From Gammaproteobacteria bacterium (GTDB taxonomy: Bacteria; Pseudomonadota; Gammaproteobacteria; Pseudomonadales; Porticoccaceae), in assembly GCA_003235325.1 (NCBI GenBank), contig QJWQ01000155.1, positions 1-41,910 on the forward strand: DNA of 41,910 nucleotides. The letters are read 5' to 3'. The position numbers were made by a program, and so were the translations under genes. Each line of letters starts with the position of its first letter. Positions within the stretch are counted from its first letter, which is position 1. Positions 1,155 to 39,985 of the stretch are shown piece after piece. The notes beneath the pieces were generated by a model, which worked only from the letters and a program-made list of their open reading frames with translations, was not told the origin of the DNA and did not search any database.

Positions 1155-1511
<357 letters not shown>

Positions 1512-1554
1512 GACGTCAGCCGCGGCTGTCGATTAGAGTGAATCAGGAAAACAT

Positions 1555-1947
1555 ATGGCCAAGACACCCAGTAAAACCGTTCGCAAAAAGGTAAAACGCA
1601 CCGTTGTCGATGGGGTAGCCCATGTCCATGCGTCCTTTAACAATACCATCATCACGATTACTGATCGCCAGGGAAACACACTCAGTTGGGCGACCTCGGG
1701 GGGTTCCGGTTTCCGCGGTTCCCGGAAAAGCACGCCCTTCGCTGCCCAGGTCGCTGCTGAGCGCGCCGGTATTGCTGCGCAGGAGTACGGATTGAAAAAT
1801 CTGGATGTTCAGGTGAAGGGTCCTGGTCCGGGCCGCGAATCGGCCGTTCGTGCCCTGAATAACGCCGGTTTTAAAATTACCAATATCACCGATGTGACGC
1901 CGATTCCTCACAACGGCTGTCGTCCGCCCAAGAAACGTCGTGTGTAA
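1555..1947 (+). CDS. rpsK: 30S ribosomal protein S11
   Basis: Platform protein of the 30S subunit, near the mRNA exit path. At 130 residues it is one longer than in E. coli. The [15 protein letters not shown] segment and the C-terminal [13 protein letters not shown] are conserved signatures. AGGA lies just upstream of the ATG. It sits between rpsM and rpsD as in most gammaproteobacteria. Confidence 0.97.
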
Positions 1948-32189: not shown

Positions 32190-33248
<1,059 letters not shown>

Positions 33249-33279: not shown

Positions 33280-33293
33280 TGTAATTTTGCAAC
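33280..33293 (-). promoter_or_regulatory. Candidate HexR-type site upstream of gap
   Basis: TGTAATTTTGCAAC (plus-strand reading) is identical in 13 of 14 bases to an element before zwf (34363-34376). The first six bases equal one half of the perfect palindrome before zwf. It overlaps a second palindrome, GCAACA-TTT-TGTTGC (33289-33303). It lies about 90 bases upstream of the gap start. Confidence 0.4.
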
Positions 33294-33320
33294 ATTTTGT
33301 TGCGGGTCTGGTGTGTAGCT

Positions 33321-34190
33321 TTATATTCTGTATTCGTCCTTGATATGCCGGGTGTCACGCAAGACTTCCTTGACCTGTTTCAGGTGTTGGGAAAATCGTG
33401 GACCTCGTTTTAACGCCGCCGCTGTCGCCAGAATATCGATAAGTACAAGATGAGCGATCCTGGAGGTCATTGGCGTATAGATGTCTGTATCCTCCGGTAT
33501 CTCCATAGCCAGAACTATCGAACAAATTTTCGCCAGGGGCGAATCGCCTGTGGTGATGCCTATCACGGTTGCTCCATTGTCTGCGGCAAGTTGAGCCGCC
33601 TCTGTCAAGGCGATAGTCCTCCCAGTATAGGATATACAGACGACAACATCTTTCTCGCCCAGAGCCGTACAGGCCAACCGTTGGTTCATGACATCGGTGT
33701 GGGCGATCACCGGAATGTCGAAACGCAGGAACTTGTGTTGGGCATCAAGTGCTACAGGACCAGATGCGCCAATGCCAAAAAACACGATGCTTCGCGCCTG
33801 GGACAAAACCTCCGCTGCTTTGTCTATTTCCCTGTTGTTACATTCACTTTGTACAGTATGCAGACTGGCGTGCGTGGATTCAAAGATTTTGTCAATGAGG
33901 GAATTCGTCGAATCGCCTGCTTCCACGTCCCGAGTCATGCTGGGCAGGCCCTGAGCCAGGCCCTGAGCCAGGTCCTGAGCCAGTTTGACCTTGAAGTCCG
34001 GGAAGCCTTTGCAGTCCAGGCTGCGGCAAAAACGGTTTACGGTGGGCTCGCTAACTCCTGCTTTGCGTGCGATACTGGATATTGGCGCCCTGATGACGGC
34101 TTCCGGGTCCGCAAGTATCACTTCCGAGACCTTGCGTTCGGATTTGCTGAGGCGCAAACCGGAATTTTTTAGTATGCTTAGAACGCTCAT
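33321..34190 (-). CDS. hexR: RpiR-family regulator HexR
   Basis: Transcription factor that senses 2-keto-3-deoxy-6-phosphogluconate in related bacteria and controls central sugar metabolism. The 289 residues have an N-terminal helix-turn-helix (about 37-58, ISSIARKAGVSEPTVNRFCR) and a C-terminal SIS sugar-phosphate domain (about 130-260, with VVVCISYTGRT). A short repeat (LAQ-DLAQ-GLAQ-G) lies in the linker at about 70-81. It is divergent from the zwf operon with a 211-base shared region holding a perfect palindrome, and upstream of gap. Family and location make the HexR call firm. Confidence 0.93.
   Translation of the reverse strand: MSVLSILKNSGLRLSKSERKVSEVILADPEAVIRAPISSIARKAGVSEPTVNRFCRSLDCKGFPDFKVKLAQDLAQGLAQGLPSMTRDVEAGDSTNSLIDKIFESTHASLHTVQSECNNREIDKAAEVLSQARSIVFFGIGASGPVALDAQHKFLRFDIPVIAHTDVMNQRLACTALGEKDVVVCISYTGRTIALTEAAQLAADNGATVIGITTGDSPLAKICSIVLAMEIPEDTDIYTPMTSRIAHLVLIDILATAAALKRGPRFSQHLKQVKEVLRDTRHIKDEYRI
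33945..33980 (-). repeat. Three 12-bp tandem repeats inside hexR
   Basis: CAGGCCCTGAGC occurs twice and CAGGTCCTGAGC once, back to back on the plus strand. In frame they encode a repeated LAQG/D tetrapeptide in the linker between the HTH and SIS domains of HexR. Confidence 0.8.
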
Positions 34191-34199
34191 GTGCTAGTA

Positions 34200-34236
34200 C
34201 CTTGAAACGTCGGGATCAATCACCGTTGATTCAAGG
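34200..34236. other. Inverted repeat near the hexR start
   Basis: CCTTGAA (34200-34206) and TTCAAGG (34230-34236) form a 7-bp stem starting 10 bases upstream of the hexR ATG; ATCAA/TTGAT (34215-34219/34226-34230) pairs alternatively inside. It could act as an operator or a leader hairpin. Confidence 0.35.
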
Positions 34237-34309
34237 GTGTAAACATAATAAAGCATTGGGATACCCTGAATAAGAATAATGTAACTGTCCAGCCATACCT
34301 GTTTCATTA

Positions 34310-34324
34310 TGTAATGATATTACA
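34310..34324 (+). promoter_or_regulatory. Perfect 15-bp palindrome, HexR operator candidate
   Basis: TGTAAT-GAT-ATTACA is a perfect inverted repeat and fits the published HexR box type (TGTAAT-n3-ATTACA in Shewanella). It lies 78 bases upstream of zwf and 120 upstream of hexR, so one site may serve both genes. Confidence 0.7.
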
Positions 34325-34362
34325 AAATACACCAGTTCTTATCGTCTTGTCGGGGCTAATTC

Positions 34363-34376
34363 TGTAATTTTACAAC
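34363..34376 (+). promoter_or_regulatory. Second candidate HexR-type element before zwf
   Basis: TGTAATTTTACAAC contains the close palindrome TGTAA-TT-TTACA and matches the element upstream of gap in 13 of 14 bases. It lies 26 bases before the zwf GTG, close to the likely transcription start. Confidence 0.4.
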
Positions 34377-34401
34377 CCATAACGCATGCCAGGAGACTGA
34401 A

Positions 34402-35859
34402 GTGACTTGTGACATCTTGATTTTCGGTGGGGAGGGCGACCTCGCACTGCGTAAACTTTATCCGGCGCTTTACCATTTGGACCTAGCTGGCTGTTTGGAC
34501 GAGTCGCTGAAAATTTACGGCGTTGCTCGCAATGGCGGTGATCAAGAGACCTTTGTCCCTCGGGTGCGCGACTGGTTCGAAAGAACTGTCAGTAATTCCA
34601 AAATCGACGAAGATGTCTGGACGAGATTTACCGCCCGTCTGACCACGATCGGAGCCGACGCCACTTCGTCGGAATCCCTGGGCAAAATGGCTTCCGAGTA
34701 CCTCGCCGATGAAAGTCGCGACCTGATTGTTTACCTTTCGACGCCACCGACAATCTTCTCTCCGATCTGCCAGGCGCTCAAAGCGGTCGGACTGGTGCGG
34801 CCAAATACTCGTATTGTGGTGGAAAAACCCTTGGGGGATAATCTGGAGTCCTTCAGGGAAATCAACGAAAAATTGACCTCAATTTTTGAGGAATACCAGG
34901 TATACCGAATCGACCATTACCTCGGCAAGGAGACGGTCCAGAACCTGTTGGCCATGCGCTTTGCCAATGCCCTGTTTGAGCCCCTCTGGAATAACAACTA
35001 TATCGACAACGTCCAGATTACCGTGGCTGAAACCGTTGGCGCCGAAGGGCGTTGGGATTTCTACGATGGCGCCGGTGCCATGCGTGACATGGTCCAGAAC
35101 CACCTGTTGCAGCTTTTATGCCTGGCGGCGATGGAGCCTCCATCCAATCTCAGCGCCGACGCGGTGCGGGATGAAAAGCTCAAGGTGCTCCGCTGCCTGC
35201 ATCCCATGGATAATGCCGAGATCAAAGCCAATACTGTTCGTGGCCAGTACGGTTCAGGCGCAGTGGATGGCAAGCCGGTTGTTGGCTACTGCGAAGAGAG
35301 CGGTGCTGCACCCACATCAAACACTGAAACCTTTGTCGCTATCAAGGCCAGCATTGATAACTGGCGCTGGGCCGGCGTGCCTTTTTACCTGCGGACCGGC
35401 AAGCGGTTGCCAAAAAGATATTCAGAGATTGTTATCCAGTTTAAGGACGTTCCCCATTCCATCTTTGGTAACGTCGGAACCGGTTCCTCAAATGATCTGA
35501 TCATTCGTCTGCAACCGGACGAGGGAATCAGGTTGCATGTCATGAACAAGGTGCCAGGCCTCGACGTATCCATGCCGCTGCAGGAAGTCACATTGAACCT
35601 GTCATTCTCCCAGGCCTTTGAAAGCCGGCGAGTGCCGGAGGCCTACGAACGGTTGCTGTTTGATGTCATTCGCAACAATCCCACCCTGTTCGTGCGTTCT
35701 GATGAGGTAGAGCAAGCCTGGCGCTGGGTTGACCAGATTCGCGCAGGCTGGGAAAGAAACAACATGCGACCGGAGTTCTATACTGCCGGTAGCCAGGGGC
35801 CATCACAGTCGATCGGATTGGTGGCCAGGGAAGGACGCAGTTGGCACGAGTTCCGGTAA
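34402..35859 (+). CDS. zwf: Glucose-6-phosphate 1-dehydrogenase
   Basis: Oxidises glucose 6-phosphate to 6-phosphogluconolactone with NADP or NAD. The 485 residues have the nucleotide-binding GGEGDLALRK at 9-18 (other family members have GASGDL or GALGDL), EKPLG at 141-145 and the active-site RIDHYLGKE at 169-177. The GTG start at 34402 has AGGAG 6 bases upstream. First gene of the Entner-Doudoroff operon; pgl follows after a single base, so they are probably translated together. Confidence 0.96.
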   Translation: MTCDILIFGGEGDLALRKLYPALYHLDLAGCLDESLKIYGVARNGGDQETFVPRVRDWFERTVSNSKIDEDVWTRFTARLTTIGADATSSESLGKMASEYLADESRDLIVYLSTPPTIFSPICQALKAVGLVRPNTRIVVEKPLGDNLESFREINEKLTSIFEEYQVYRIDHYLGKETVQNLLAMRFANALFEPLWNNNYIDNVQITVAETVGAEGRWDFYDGAGAMRDMVQNHLLQLLCLAAMEPPSNLSADAVRDEKLKVLRCLHPMDNAEIKANTVRGQYGSGAVDGKPVVGYCEESGAAPTSNTETFVAIKASIDNWRWAGVPFYLRTGKRLPKRYSEIVIQFKDVPHSIFGNVGTGSSNDLIIRLQPDEGIRLHVMNKVPGLDVSMPLQEVTLNLSFSQAFESRRVPEAYERLLFDVIRNNPTLFVRSDEVEQAWRWVDQIRAGWERNNMRPEFYTAGSQGPSQSIGLVAREGRSWHEFR

Positions 35860-35860
35860 G

Positions 35861-36565
35861 ATGAGTTATAACATTAATTCGTTTGAGACCAACGCCCACC
35901 TGGTCGAGTCCTTGTCTGAGGATATTGCCGCCCACTTGCGGGATGCAATTAAAAGTCGGGGTGGCGCCTCGCTCGCGGTATCCGGAGGCTCAACACCGAT
36001 ATCCCTGTTCAAGCAGTTGTCAATACTGGATGTTCCCTGGGACAAGGTCTGGATTACCCTGGTGGACGAGCGCTGGGTCAATGCTGATCACGCTGATTCC
36101 AATGCCCGTTTGGTGCAGCAGCACCTGCTGACCAATCGCGCCGTGTATGCCCATTTCATTCCGATGAAACTGGATTCTGACAGCCCTTTTGGCTCCGAAA
36201 AGGCGCTGGAGGCGCTGCTGGCGCCTCTGCCCAAACCATTTGACGTAATAATTCTGGGTATGGGCGGTGATGGCCACACGGCCTCATTTTTCCCCGGCGC
36301 CGAGACCCTCGGTATCGCCCTGGACATGGAAAATCCCGCTCTCTGCGCGGCGGTGCAACCGCTGACGGCGCCCCACGACCGCATGACCCTCACTCTGAAA
36401 ACCCTGTTACAGGCCCGGCATCTGGTCTTACATATCGTCGGCGATAGCAAGTGGCAGGTGTTACAGGAAGCTATTGAGGATGGTCCGGCTGAAATTCTGC
36501 CGGTTCGCGCGGTAATACACCAAAAGCAATCTCCACTAACCATTTTTTACGCGGCTCAGGAGTGA
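35861..36565 (+). CDS. pgl: 6-phosphogluconolactonase
   Basis: Hydrolyses 6-phosphogluconolactone to 6-phosphogluconate. The 234 residues have VSGGSTP (nucleotide-free GlcN6P isomerase-like loop), VDERWV and GMGGDGHTASFFPG, the standard Pgl signatures. The ATG follows the zwf TAA by one base with no strong ribosome site, suggesting coupling. The frame is open upstream inside zwf, but the conserved protein begins here. Confidence 0.94.
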   Translation: MSYNINSFETNAHLVESLSEDIAAHLRDAIKSRGGASLAVSGGSTPISLFKQLSILDVPWDKVWITLVDERWVNADHADSNARLVQQHLLTNRAVYAHFIPMKLDSDSPFGSEKALEALLAPLPKPFDVIILGMGGDGHTASFFPGAETLGIALDMENPALCAAVQPLTAPHDRMTLTLKTLLQARHLVLHIVGDSKWQVLQEAIEDGPAEILPVRAVIHQKQSPLTIFYAAQE

Positions 36566-36572
36566 GACATTC

Positions 36573-38381
36573 ATGAATACCGTTATCGAGCAAGTCACCG
36601 CCAAGTTGCGGGAGCGTAGCAAGGCGACCCGGCAGGATTACCTGGATCGAATGAAGCGAACCCAGGATCAGGACCCTCCGAAAAGGCGCCTGTCCTGCGG
36701 AAATCTGGCTCATGCTTACGCCGCCTGCGGCGAGGAGGAGAAGCAGACCATTCGCCTGATGCAGAGCGCCAACCTGGGTATCGTCACCTCTTACAACGAT
36801 ATGCTTTCCGCGCATCAGCCCATGGTGTCCTATCCCGACCTGATCAAGCAGGTAGCACGCCAGCATGGCAGCACGGCCCAGGTAGCCGGTGGTGTGCCAG
36901 CCATGTGCGATGGCGTAACCCAGGGACAGGCGGGCATGGAACTCAGCCTGTTCAGTCGCGATGTCATCGCCCTGGCTACGGCAGTCAGCCTCAGCCACAA
37001 TTTGTTTGACGGTGTTCTCTGTTTGGGTGTCTGCGACAAAATCGTCCCTGGCATGGTGATCGGGTCTCTGCAATTTGGTCATCTGCCAGTGGGTTTTATC
37101 CCCGCCGGACCCATGCCCACGGGTATTCCCAACAAGGAGAAAGCCTCTGTTCGCCAGCGCTACGCCGAGGGCAAGGCCAACCGCGACGAATTGCTGGCCG
37201 CCGAATCCGCTTCTTACCACAGTCCCGGCACCTGTACCTTCTATGGCACCGCCAATAGCAACCAGGTGCTGGTGGAGATGATGGGTATTCAACTGCCCGG
37301 ATCTTCTTTCATCAATCCTGAGGATCCCCTGCGGGATGCTCTGACCCGGGAAACCGTGCTCCGGGTTATCAGCCAGAGCCATGGCGGTTCAAGCTATACA
37401 CCCATGTATGAGGTGGTCAACGAGGCATCCATTATCAACGCCGTAGTTGCCCTTCTGGCAACGGGTGGTTCCACAAATCACACGATGCATATGGTCGCCA
37501 TGGCCAAGTCTGCGGGTATCGATCTCACCTGGAAGGACATGGATGATCTTTCCCGTGTCGTACCCTTGCTGGCAAGGGTCTATCCCAATGGCGAAGCAGA
37601 TATCAATGCTTTTCAGCAGGCTGGCGGTATGGCTTACCTGGTCCGCGAGCTGCGGGGCGCCGGGCTCCTTAACGAGCAAGTGGTCAATCTCATGGGAGAG
37701 GGGCTGGATTCTTACGAACTGGCGCCCGAACTCGATGAGCAGGGCGGTGCGGTATGGCGCAATAACGTCATGACATCTTCCCTGCCGGACGTGCTGGCCC
37801 CGGCCTCTATGCCCTTTGACAAGGAAGGTGGCCTGCGTCGCCTGGCCGGCAATCTCGGTGAAGGCGTGATCAAGGTTTCTGCGGTCAAGGCCCCGCATCG
37901 TGAGGTCAAGGCTCCCTGCAAGATCTTCCACTCCCAGGATCAGTTGCAAAAAGCCTTCGAGGCCGGTGAAATGAACCGGGACATCGTTGCCGTGGTGCTG
38001 TTCCAGGGCCCAATGGCCAACGGAATGCCCGAGTTACACAAGATGACGCCCTATCTCGGCGTTCTGCAGGACAAGGGTTACAAGGTGGCCCTGGTTACAG
38101 ACGGCCGTATGTCCGGGGCATCCGGCAAGGTGCCGGCGGCCATTCACATGTCTCCGGAAGCAATGGATGGCGGCCCGCTGGGGAAACTGCGGGACGGCGA
38201 TATCGTCCACCTCGATGCCAACAATGGTTCCCTGCAGGCACTGGTGGATGAGCAGGAGTGGCAAGCCCGGGAACAAACGCCAGCCTACATCGAGGACAAC
38301 ACCCTCGGTCGCAATTTGTTTGCGTCATTGCGCGCTTCCGTCAATGGCGCTCGATCAGGAGCTACCATTTTCCATGACTAG
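36573..38381 (+). CDS. edd: Phosphogluconate dehydratase
   Basis: Iron-sulfur dehydratase turning 6-phosphogluconate into KDPG, first specific step of the Entner-Doudoroff path. The 602 residues match E. coli Edd (603). Cluster cysteines C154 ([11 protein letters not shown]) and C221 (PGTCTFYG) are at E. coli positions, and the [15 protein letters not shown] motif is present. It starts 7 bases after pgl and overlaps glk by 8 bases. Confidence 0.97.
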
Positions 38382-39324
38382 CACACTTCATATCGTGGGT
38401 GACATCGGCGGCACCAATGCCCGGTTTGCCCGGGTGGGTGCCAAACGAAACAAACTGGCCGGCGTTCGTGTATTGCCCTGTGCCGATTACCCCAATCTGG
38501 GGGAGGCACTTCAGGCCTATATGGAGGCTGAGACGATAAAGGATGTAGGGCAAATCTGCCTGGCAGTGGCGGGTCCGGTGGAGTCAGACGTGATTGACCT
38601 GCCCAACAATCACTGGAAATTCAGTATCTCCAGTCTGCAGGAACGGTTCGCAGTATCGTTGAAAGTCATTAATGATTTCACTGCCCAGGCCCTGTGTATT
38701 CCCCTGCTTGAAGACAACGAACTGACCTGGGTCGGCTCGCCACGACCCAAGGGTGGACACCGGGATAACAGCCGCGTCAGGGCCGTAATGGGTCCGGGCA
38801 CCGGACTCGGCGTTGCCGCCACCATGCCTTCCGGCGAGGTGGTGCCATCCGAGGGCGGTCATGTTGCCTTTGCGCCAGTCAACCAGCACGAAATGGATCT
38901 GCTGAAGACCATGTGGGGTCGCTTCAACCGGGTCTCGGTGGAACGGTTTCTGTCCGGATCGGGTCTTGCCAATCTCTACTGGGCCAATTCCCGATTGCAA
39001 GGGAAGGGAGGAGAACTGGAGCCGCCATTGATAGTGGCTGGCGCCCTGGGCAATGATCCGATGTGTCACCAGGCACTGGACGATTTTTGCTCCATTCTCG
39101 GGTCGGTTGCCGGGGATGTGGCCATGGCAATGGGAGCAACCGGCGGGGTCTATCTGTCAGGGGGCATCCTGCCCAGAATCAAGGACTATTTTCTGGCGAG
39201 CAATTTCAGGAACCGCTTTGAAGACAAAGGACGTTTTCACGAATACTGTCAGCAAATTCCCGTGGCCATGGTGCTGGCAGAACATCCCGGACTCCTGGGT
39301 TGTGCCGCCGCGTTGGAACCCTGA
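38374..39324 (+). CDS. glk: Glucokinase
   Basis: Phosphorylates free glucose with ATP to glucose 6-phosphate, the Zwf substrate. The 316 residues have the phosphate loop GDIGGTNARFA (9-19), the INDFTAQA catalytic segment and GPGTGLG, typical of the bacterial Glk family (ROK-independent). The ATG at 38374 lies 8 bases before the edd end; AGGAG is upstream at a long spacing. Its position between edd and eda makes one operon able to take glucose to pyruvate and triose phosphate. Confidence 0.94.
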   Translation: MTSTLHIVGDIGGTNARFARVGAKRNKLAGVRVLPCADYPNLGEALQAYMEAETIKDVGQICLAVAGPVESDVIDLPNNHWKFSISSLQERFAVSLKVINDFTAQALCIPLLEDNELTWVGSPRPKGGHRDNSRVRAVMGPGTGLGVAATMPSGEVVPSEGGHVAFAPVNQHEMDLLKTMWGRFNRVSVERFLSGSGLANLYWANSRLQGKGGELEPPLIVAGALGNDPMCHQALDDFCSILGSVAGDVAMAMGATGGVYLSGGILPRIKDYFLASNFRNRFEDKGRFHEYCQQIPVAMVLAEHPGLLGCAAALEP

Positions 39325-39358: not shown

Positions 39359-39985
39359 GTGACAACGATGCTGCAAAGAATGCAAAGTGCAAAAGTCCTG
39401 CCGGTGGTGCTGGTCGAAACGGTAGATTCAGCGATCAAGCTGGCTGAAGCCCTGAAACGCGGGGGAATCAAGACTGTCGAGATAACCCTGCGCACCGCCT
39501 GTGCCCTCGATGCCATGAAAGCCGTCAAGGAGGCGGTGCCCGATGTGGTTGTCTGTGCCGGCACTATCCTCAAGCAGTCCGATCTGGACGACGTGGCCAA
39601 GATCGGGGTCGATTTTGCTGTCAGCCCGGGCATGACCGTCAATCTGATCAAACACGCCCAGGAGATCGGTATGCCTTTCTTGCCCGGGCTGTCCACCCCC
39701 AGTGAAATGATGGCTGGCATGGAACTGGGTCTCGATTGTTTCAAGCTGTTTCCCGCCACTGCTGTCGGCGGCTATAACCTGTTAAAGGCGCTAGCCAGTC
39801 CTCTCGCCGGCATCAATTTCTGTCCCACCGGTGGGCTCAACCCGGATAACTACACAGATTTTCTGGCACTGCCCAACGTCGCCTGCATCGGCGGATCCTG
39901 GATGGCGAGCCCCGAGCTGATAAACGCCGGCGAGTGGGACAAGATCGAGGAAATTGCCCGCCAGACCATGTCCCGAATCGACTGA
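39359..39985 (+). CDS. eda: KDPG aldolase (2-dehydro-3-deoxy-phosphogluconate aldolase)
   Basis: Cleaves KDPG to pyruvate and glyceraldehyde 3-phosphate. The 208 residues place E41 (VEITLRT) and the Schiff-base K129 (DCFKLFPA) at the expected spacing. A GTG start at 39359 is supported by GAGG 8 bases upstream; an ATG three codons later is an alternative. It follows glk after 34 bases and closes the Entner-Doudoroff set. Confidence 0.96.
   Translation: MTTMLQRMQSAKVLPVVLVETVDSAIKLAEALKRGGIKTVEITLRTACALDAMKAVKEAVPDVVVCAGTILKQSDLDDVAKIGVDFAVSPGMTVNLIKHAQEIGMPFLPGLSTPSEMMAGMELGLDCFKLFPATAVGGYNLLKALASPLAGINFCPTGGLNPDNYTDFLALPNVACIGGSWMASPELINAGEWDKIEEIARQTMSRID

Follow-up and report, generated by a model that had tools for sequence, protein, structure and literature searches.

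The perfect inverted repeat TGTAATGATATTACA, which occupies positions 34310-34324 of the window (the whole stretch of 41,910 nucleotides analysed here) between the divergent hexR and zwf genes, very probably binds the sugar-sensing repressor HexR next to hexR and the Entner–Doudoroff genes, and is most likely the main HexR operator, designated O1. We are confident, short of certainty, that O1 acts as the strong HexR operator of the hexR/zwf region, that a second dimer, or the second half of a tetramer, at a weaker site (O2) blocks the zwf gene run, and that KDPG releases the repressor. The site is conserved across genera, pairs of such sites recur in other genomes at spacings of whole helical turns, and the pairs co-occur with hexR. 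The original prediction of a HexR operator at this place holds in kind, as regards the gene, the sequence, and its conservation; it needs revision in form, since O1 is probably one member of a phased pair.

The identity of hexR and of its neighbours zwf, pgl, edd, glk, eda, and gap was given by NCBIfam models, all matched above their cut-offs. The hexR gene (33321-34190, minus strand) codes for an RpiR-family repressor that scored 373 bits against the curated model NF008451 (cut-off 296), with an N-terminal HTH_6 domain (PF01418, residues 1-76) and a C-terminal SIS domain (PF01380, residues 129-257). The recognition-helix arginines of Pseudomonas putida HexR are Arg54 and Arg57 (PMC5902321); in the protein encoded here R53 and R56, located in the segment VSEPTVNRFCR and conserved with PDB chain 8ju9, may be their counterparts. 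No other HexR-like protein was found in the genome (94.5% complete) at E values up to 1e-30. Within hexR, the sequence CCTGAGCCAG is present three times at window positions 33950-33983, 12 bp apart and in frame; the triplicate reads AQDLAQGLAQGL on the minus strand and lies at about the end of the HTH domain. On the plus strand are zwf (glucose-6-phosphate dehydrogenase, GTG start, 34402-35859, TIGR00871, 585 bits), pgl (6-phosphogluconolactonase, 35861-36565, TIGR01198, 191 bits), edd (phosphogluconate dehydratase, 36573-38381, TIGR01196, 929 bits), glk (glucokinase, 38374-39324, TIGR00749, 286 bits), and eda (KDPG aldolase, 39359-39985, TIGR01182, 247 bits), which are presumably co-transcribed. 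The gap gene (glyceraldehyde-3-phosphate dehydrogenase, 32190-33194, minus strand, TIGR01534, 438 bits) lies downstream of hexR and has an AT-rich upstream region of its own.

O1, TGTAAT-GAT-ATTACA, is indeed a perfect 15-bp inverted repeat, more exactly a 6-3-6 arrangement: its 6-bp arms match each other perfectly and enclose the 3-bp spacer GAT, which is not itself symmetric. Its distance upstream of the start codon is 119 bp for hexR (34190, minus strand) and 77 bp for zwf (GTG, 34402). Because the window contains 29 perfect 6-3-6 palindromes (ca. 11 are expected from base composition), a bare palindrome of this kind is unremarkable, and what stands out is the sequence of O1 and its place. 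All 12 of the 12 arm bases of the HexR operator TGTAAT-N3-ATTACA are present, and we take the 15-mer to match the HexR boxes of Shewanella. In the 3.26-Mb genome (94.5% complete) the pattern TGTAATNNNATTACA occurs with perfect arms at two sites and with two mismatches at 33; there are no one-mismatch sites. The same pattern read backward, used as a control, has no exact site and 20 at two mismatches or fewer, versus 35 for the true pattern. With a weight matrix derived from 45 sites at pair loci in another order, the window's 15-mer and all hexR loci being left out, the best score of the hexR–zwf interval was equalled in one of 2000 Markov shuffles. O1 is the predicted primary operator on account of this score, the best in the window, and of its conservation at the locus. 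No sigma-70 promoter in 34150-34450 passed a simple scan.

A genome-wide scan had been proposed as a check that the motif lies before central carbon genes, and it revealed no larger regulon: the two perfect sites are O1 and a site before lpxC. Twenty-eight of the 33 two-mismatch sites fall inside ORFs of at least 70 amino acids (four of these being short ORFs of 74-105 amino acids) and five are intergenic; by eye, no carbon gene was recognised downstream of the nine sites whose flanks were translated (the five intergenic ones and the four in short ORFs). One two-mismatch site (L121) adjoins a gene named by eye as triosephosphate isomerase but is situated on its 3' side, and no other near-perfect site precedes a recognised carbon gene in the 94.5% complete genome. 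HexR of Enterobacteriales is said to regulate zwf locally (PMC5343134); the lack of a wider regulon fits such a role, and enrichment of strong sites before carbon genes is therefore not a defining property of a HexR operator. The second perfect site (C25:9402-9416, equivalent to L001:1501-1515) begins 181 bp before the lpxC ORF. In 29 family relatives, no sequence with fewer than three mismatches turned up within 650 bp upstream of lpxC (377 bp in one genome), and lpxC was dropped as a second HexR target. The lpxC site may be due to chance or may reflect a lineage-specific link to lipid A synthesis.

The prediction had spoken of a single site controlling both hexR and the Entner–Doudoroff genes. 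This had to be corrected: a weaker second site is found 53 bp further on, and a weak pair is found at gap. The four best matches of the 45-site matrix in the window start at 34310 (22.3 bits), 34363 (14.3), 33280 (12.2), and 33229 (9.9), the last being barely ahead of the fifth and sixth scores (9.6 and 9.2). The same four places lead with a 49-site matrix (22.2, 14.2, 12.3, and 11.0 bits, followed by 9.2), which includes one hexR locus of the test set described below (L159, the same place as L130). The second best, TGTAATTTTACAACC at 34363-34377, is the candidate second operator O2. It is located 24 bp upstream of the zwf GTG and covers a putative −10 element, TAATTT, recognised by eye, and the spacing of 53 bp turned up independently in a plain repeat search, as the direct repeat ATTNTGTAAT shared by O1 and O2. 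O2 is imperfect, its palindrome, TGTAATTTTACA, being 12 bp long with a shortened spacer, and HexR may occupy it.

At gap, the candidate operator TGTAATTTTGCAACA (33280-33294) and a weak second candidate, TGTGCTTTATTTACA (33229-33243), are 51 bp apart. The former covers the −35 element of a predicted gap promoter (TTGCAA, 33292-33287; −10 TAAAAT, 33269-33264), while the latter lies past the promoter. The better gap score was equalled in 45 of 2000 shuffles of the region, compared with one of 2000 for the hexR–zwf interval, and the gap sites are for this reason the weaker claim. Gap pairs at 50 bp are also present in two other loci, L032 and L033. A possible second local target of HexR is gap.

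A site with no more than two arm mismatches is found between hexR and zwf at 11 of 13 other loci, and with no more than one mismatch at five of 13; the remaining two loci, L022 and L035, have no site at two mismatches or fewer. The 11 loci include those of Lonsdalea, two Idiomarina, an unclassified gammaproteobacterium, and three genomes of the window's family. Perfect-arm matches occur in 20 of 58 kin genomes (the window's own included), compared with three for the backward control, and many of them fall just before hexR, gap, or edd. When one mismatch was allowed, 213 of 244 genomes of the order had a match, but the counts in many were close to those of the backward control (in G070, 32 versus 31), and they were therefore not used as evidence. 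Among the window's closest relatives, the second zwf site scores low: 6.4 bits in G007, at a spacing of 62 bp, and 6.9 bits in G010, at 50 bp. Both spacings are near whole helical turns. The hexR/zwf arms read TTTAAT/ATTAAA in L021, L023, and L024 (Aestuariicella albida, a Cellvibrionaceae genome, and Pseudomaricurvus), yet these loci, too, have their second site at 52-53 bp, next to a TATAAT that precedes zwf.

Paired sites, defined as a strict site with a looser one 20-80 bp away, start to start, were searched for in two orders, and ORFs were called around each pair. Matches were found in 15 of 194 genomes of the window's order (backward control, 8 of 194) and in 71 of 247 genomes of the second order (backward control, 22 of 247), the control counts and the spacings having been taken by hand. 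Grouping of the intergenic pairs by family, genus, and neighbouring gene yielded 36 groups; pairs in coding sequence, where matches are expected by chance, yielded 10. The spacings of the intergenic groups concentrate around 52, 62, and 72 bp, although a few are close to 22, 32, or 41 bp, and they are phased at 10.5 bp (R = 0.76; exp(−nR2) = 8e-10; none of 20,000 uniform draws as high), with a best period of ca. 10.25 bp. The coding groups are not phased (R = 0.13, p = 0.86). With one group taken per family (18 families) the mean R was 0.68 and the median p was 1.3e-4, though shared ancestry among the groups extends beyond what such thinning removes. The 36 groups include convergent and 3'-end pairs, without which 27 groups remain (R = 0.79), as well as the out-of-phase hexR group of family f234, at 65-66 bp. 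One locus, L205, was counted as intergenic because the ORF called over it is an over-extended hexR.

Phasing was also seen when hexR loci alone were scored with the 45-site matrix. Twenty-two of 46 loci have a pair, the other 24 having none at the thresholds used, and the best pair per locus gave R = 0.71 (p = 1.6e-5), an outcome that leaving out the shared locus L159 did not alter. The value was the same without the window (n = 21, R = 0.71) and remained similar after near-duplicates were thinned (n = 15, R = 0.69, p = 9e-4). When all 38 pairs obtained with the 49-site matrix were considered, R was 0.52; 30 column-shuffled matrices produced 2.7 pairs on average and 15 at most. Pairs 81-141 bp apart were no commoner than in the backward control (36 of 247 genomes for both) and were unphased (11 groups, R = 0.27, p = 0.45), and the claim is therefore limited to spacings of ca. 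20-80 bp.

The pairs accompany hexR. The gene is carried by 156 of the 247 genomes of the second order, that is, by 61 of the 64 with an intergenic pair versus 95 of the 183 others (Fisher p = 1.7e-11, uncorrected for kinship); in genomes with coding pairs only, it is found in one of seven. The three genomes that have an intergenic pair but lack hexR are all of one family, and their pair adjoins a different RpiR-like gene (26% identity). Among the genes at these pairs, BLAST to the window's proteins identified hexR, zwf, edd, and gap; GrcA, a Sir2-type deacetylase, and a dipeptidase pass NCBIfam cut-offs, and a phosphoglycerate-kinase-like protein falls below the cut-off of its two-domain model. 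Translations read by eye added aceE, pgi, glgP, ppc, and phosphoketolase.

Three families present further arrangements. In f179 (L150-L156), a phased pair (50-53 bp; ca. 1346-1600, minus strand) located after polA, as recognised by eye, precedes a Spot 42-like RNA (RF00021, 61 bits, E = 2.4e-11, at L150:1346-1466, against a gathering score of 80). No Spot 42 match attained the gathering threshold; the score in L152 was 29.7 bits, and L151, L153, and L155 gave no match, yet the 5' part is common to them in the alignment. The literature that names both HexR and Spot 42, on Neisseria, draws no link between the two in the portions considered here. In f225 (L215, L216, L218-L225, and L227; from ca. 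1501, in the direction leading away from the peptidase gene), a phased pair at 51-53 bp, following what by eye is an aminopeptidase-like gene, precedes a conserved leader of ca. 250 nt, which ends in an ORF of ca. 30 codons (in L216, L219, and L222, among others); L219 carries the window's exact 15-mer. In four genomes of f44 (L142-L145), a TGTAAT-type and a TGTAGT-type site are 72 bp apart before aceE, identified by eye.

The arrangement in the window suggests how control might be exerted. Ligand-free HexR, a dimer of an HTH-SIS protein, would bind O1 strongly, and the weaker O2, five helical turns (53 bp) away, would be occupied either by another dimer or by the remaining half of a tetramer. 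Occupancy of O2, over the likely zwf −10, would block the zwf-pgl-edd-glk-eda run, and at gap the similar but weaker pair, 51 bp apart, may enclose the promoter. Upon entry of sugar, KDPG, the pathway intermediate made by Edd, would bind the SIS domains, HexR would be released, and the genes would open. KDPG is reported to free HexR from DNA in Pseudomonas (PMC5902321), and P. fluorescens HexR is reported to repress zwf, edd, and gap-1 while leaving its own gene unregulated (PMC5489143). Because of the latter report, control of hexR by its own product, which had also been suggested for this site, appears doubtful. A tetramer that bridges O1 and O2 would be in line with the full-length crystal structures of RpiR proteins, which are tetramers, and with the looping proposed for pneumococcal NanR (PMC12713135).

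The strongest rival reading has O1 as the sole HexR operator; the other elements would then belong to the promoters, as the zwf −10 and the gap −35, or be chance matches, with no bridging. It is a plausible explanation that we hold to be rather less than evenly probable. O2 does contain TAATTT, a plausible −10; GTAATTT-like strings precede zwf in G007 and G010 without the full palindrome; the gap sites are weak; and one operator is listed for the zwf promoter of Pseudomonas (PMC5902321). However, the second to fourth matrix scores of the whole window all fall within the two control regions, at spacings of 53 and 51 bp, and the spacings elsewhere are quantised at ca. 41, 52, 62, and 72 bp and do not keep to one value, as they would if set by a promoter. 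The same putative −10 (TAATTT at ca. 34365-34370, by eye) would place O1 near −60, from where HexR, bound ca. 60 bp before the zwf start point, might assist RNA polymerase; HexR bound upstream of a promoter is generally seen as an activator, and this is reported for glgX (PMC11906056). We consider such a role for O1 unlikely, as O2 overlaps the −10 in a blocking position, the zwf promoter itself is putative, and zwf is under HexR repression in those Pseudomonas species that were examined (PMC5489143, PMC5902321).

The remaining explanations carry little weight. RccR, a KDPG-sensing paralogue of HexR, binds TGTAGT-N3-ACTACA, a sequence with the same 15-bp layout and near-identical arms (PMC5489143), and the pairs before aceE in f44 mix both arm types; nevertheless, O1 is very improbable as an RccR site, since its arms are of the TGTAAT and not the TGTAGT type, so that two arm positions of the whole site differ, and since the sole HexR-like protein of the genome (94.5% complete, E up to 1e-30) scores as HexR. 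A candidate RccR site elsewhere in the genome, TGTAGTGTCACTACA in C173, was rejected, being located by eye between gspE and gspF and not at aceE. Least probable of all is that O1 is a chance palindrome or a piece of an RNA hairpin or terminator. Although 29 perfect 6-3-6 palindromes in one window make accidental symmetry common, the sequence and position of O1 are conserved, and the region folds no better than its shuffles (z = 0.40 and −0.16). An intrinsic terminator at O1, consisting of a G+C-rich hairpin and a T run, was rejected, as no terminator was called and the folding was like that of shuffles.

The reading of O1 as the strong member of a HexR operator pair can be extended, with rather more hesitation. 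Gammaproteobacterial HexR could be a DNA-bridging tetramer whose operators are paired on one face of the helix, four, five, six, or seven turns apart, with KDPG controlling the bridge and not only a single contact; the five-turn pair would act at the Entner–Doudoroff run and perhaps at gap, and the f179 pair before a Spot 42-like RNA gene. We regard this generalisation as nearly as likely to be right as wrong. If it is true, the f179 pair would couple KDPG sensing to an RNA that adjusts carbon metabolism. While the O1 operator itself was to be expected, the phased pairing, which suggests a bridging tetramer, is the new part. Prediction of regulons could also improve, as the phase relative to a strong site might reveal weak ones such as that at 34363. 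Titles and opening lines of abstracts concerning HexR tandem sites, helical phase, or tetramers mention no phased pairs; the main regulon paper (Leyn 2011) was not among them, and we do not claim that such pairs are unreported.

Looping tetrameric repressors of the LacI or AraC type use two operators on one face of the helix. Compared with these and with NanR, the HexR pairs are short, at four to seven turns, and looping by HexR would be an extrapolation from their phase. The SIS tetramers formed by RpiR proteins, as described for Streptococcus pneumoniae NanR (PMC12713135), are the likeness on which such bridging would draw. A parallel to a pair of sites is offered by RccR at the Pseudomonas aceE gene, where two 15-bp sites show apparent cooperativity and hypersensitive bands that suggest DNA bending (PMC5489143). 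These sites are given as “68 bp apart”, start-to-start distance or gap being left unstated, versus 72 bp start to start in f44; RccR differs from the case of O1 in its TGTAGT arms and in its targets (PMC5489143). In Pseudomonas, hexR is likewise divergent from zwf, gap and edd are targets, and KDPG releases the protein, but the sites are of the form TTGT-N7/8-ACAA, from which O1 with its flanks, ATGT-N9-ACAA, differs in the spacer and the first base (PMC5902321, PMC5489143). Agreement is also seen with HexR of Vibrio and other gammaproteobacteria. The V. parahaemolyticus motif is TGTAATTAAATTACA (PMC11906056), all 12 arm bases of the operators are the same as in O1 (PMC11906056, PMC3223726, PMC5343134), and carbon targets are held in common, including zwf-pgl, edd, eda, and glk. 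The portions of these accounts considered here make no mention of phased pairing. The window differs from those systems in that the whole pathway forms one gene run beside hexR, with no wider set of strong sites.
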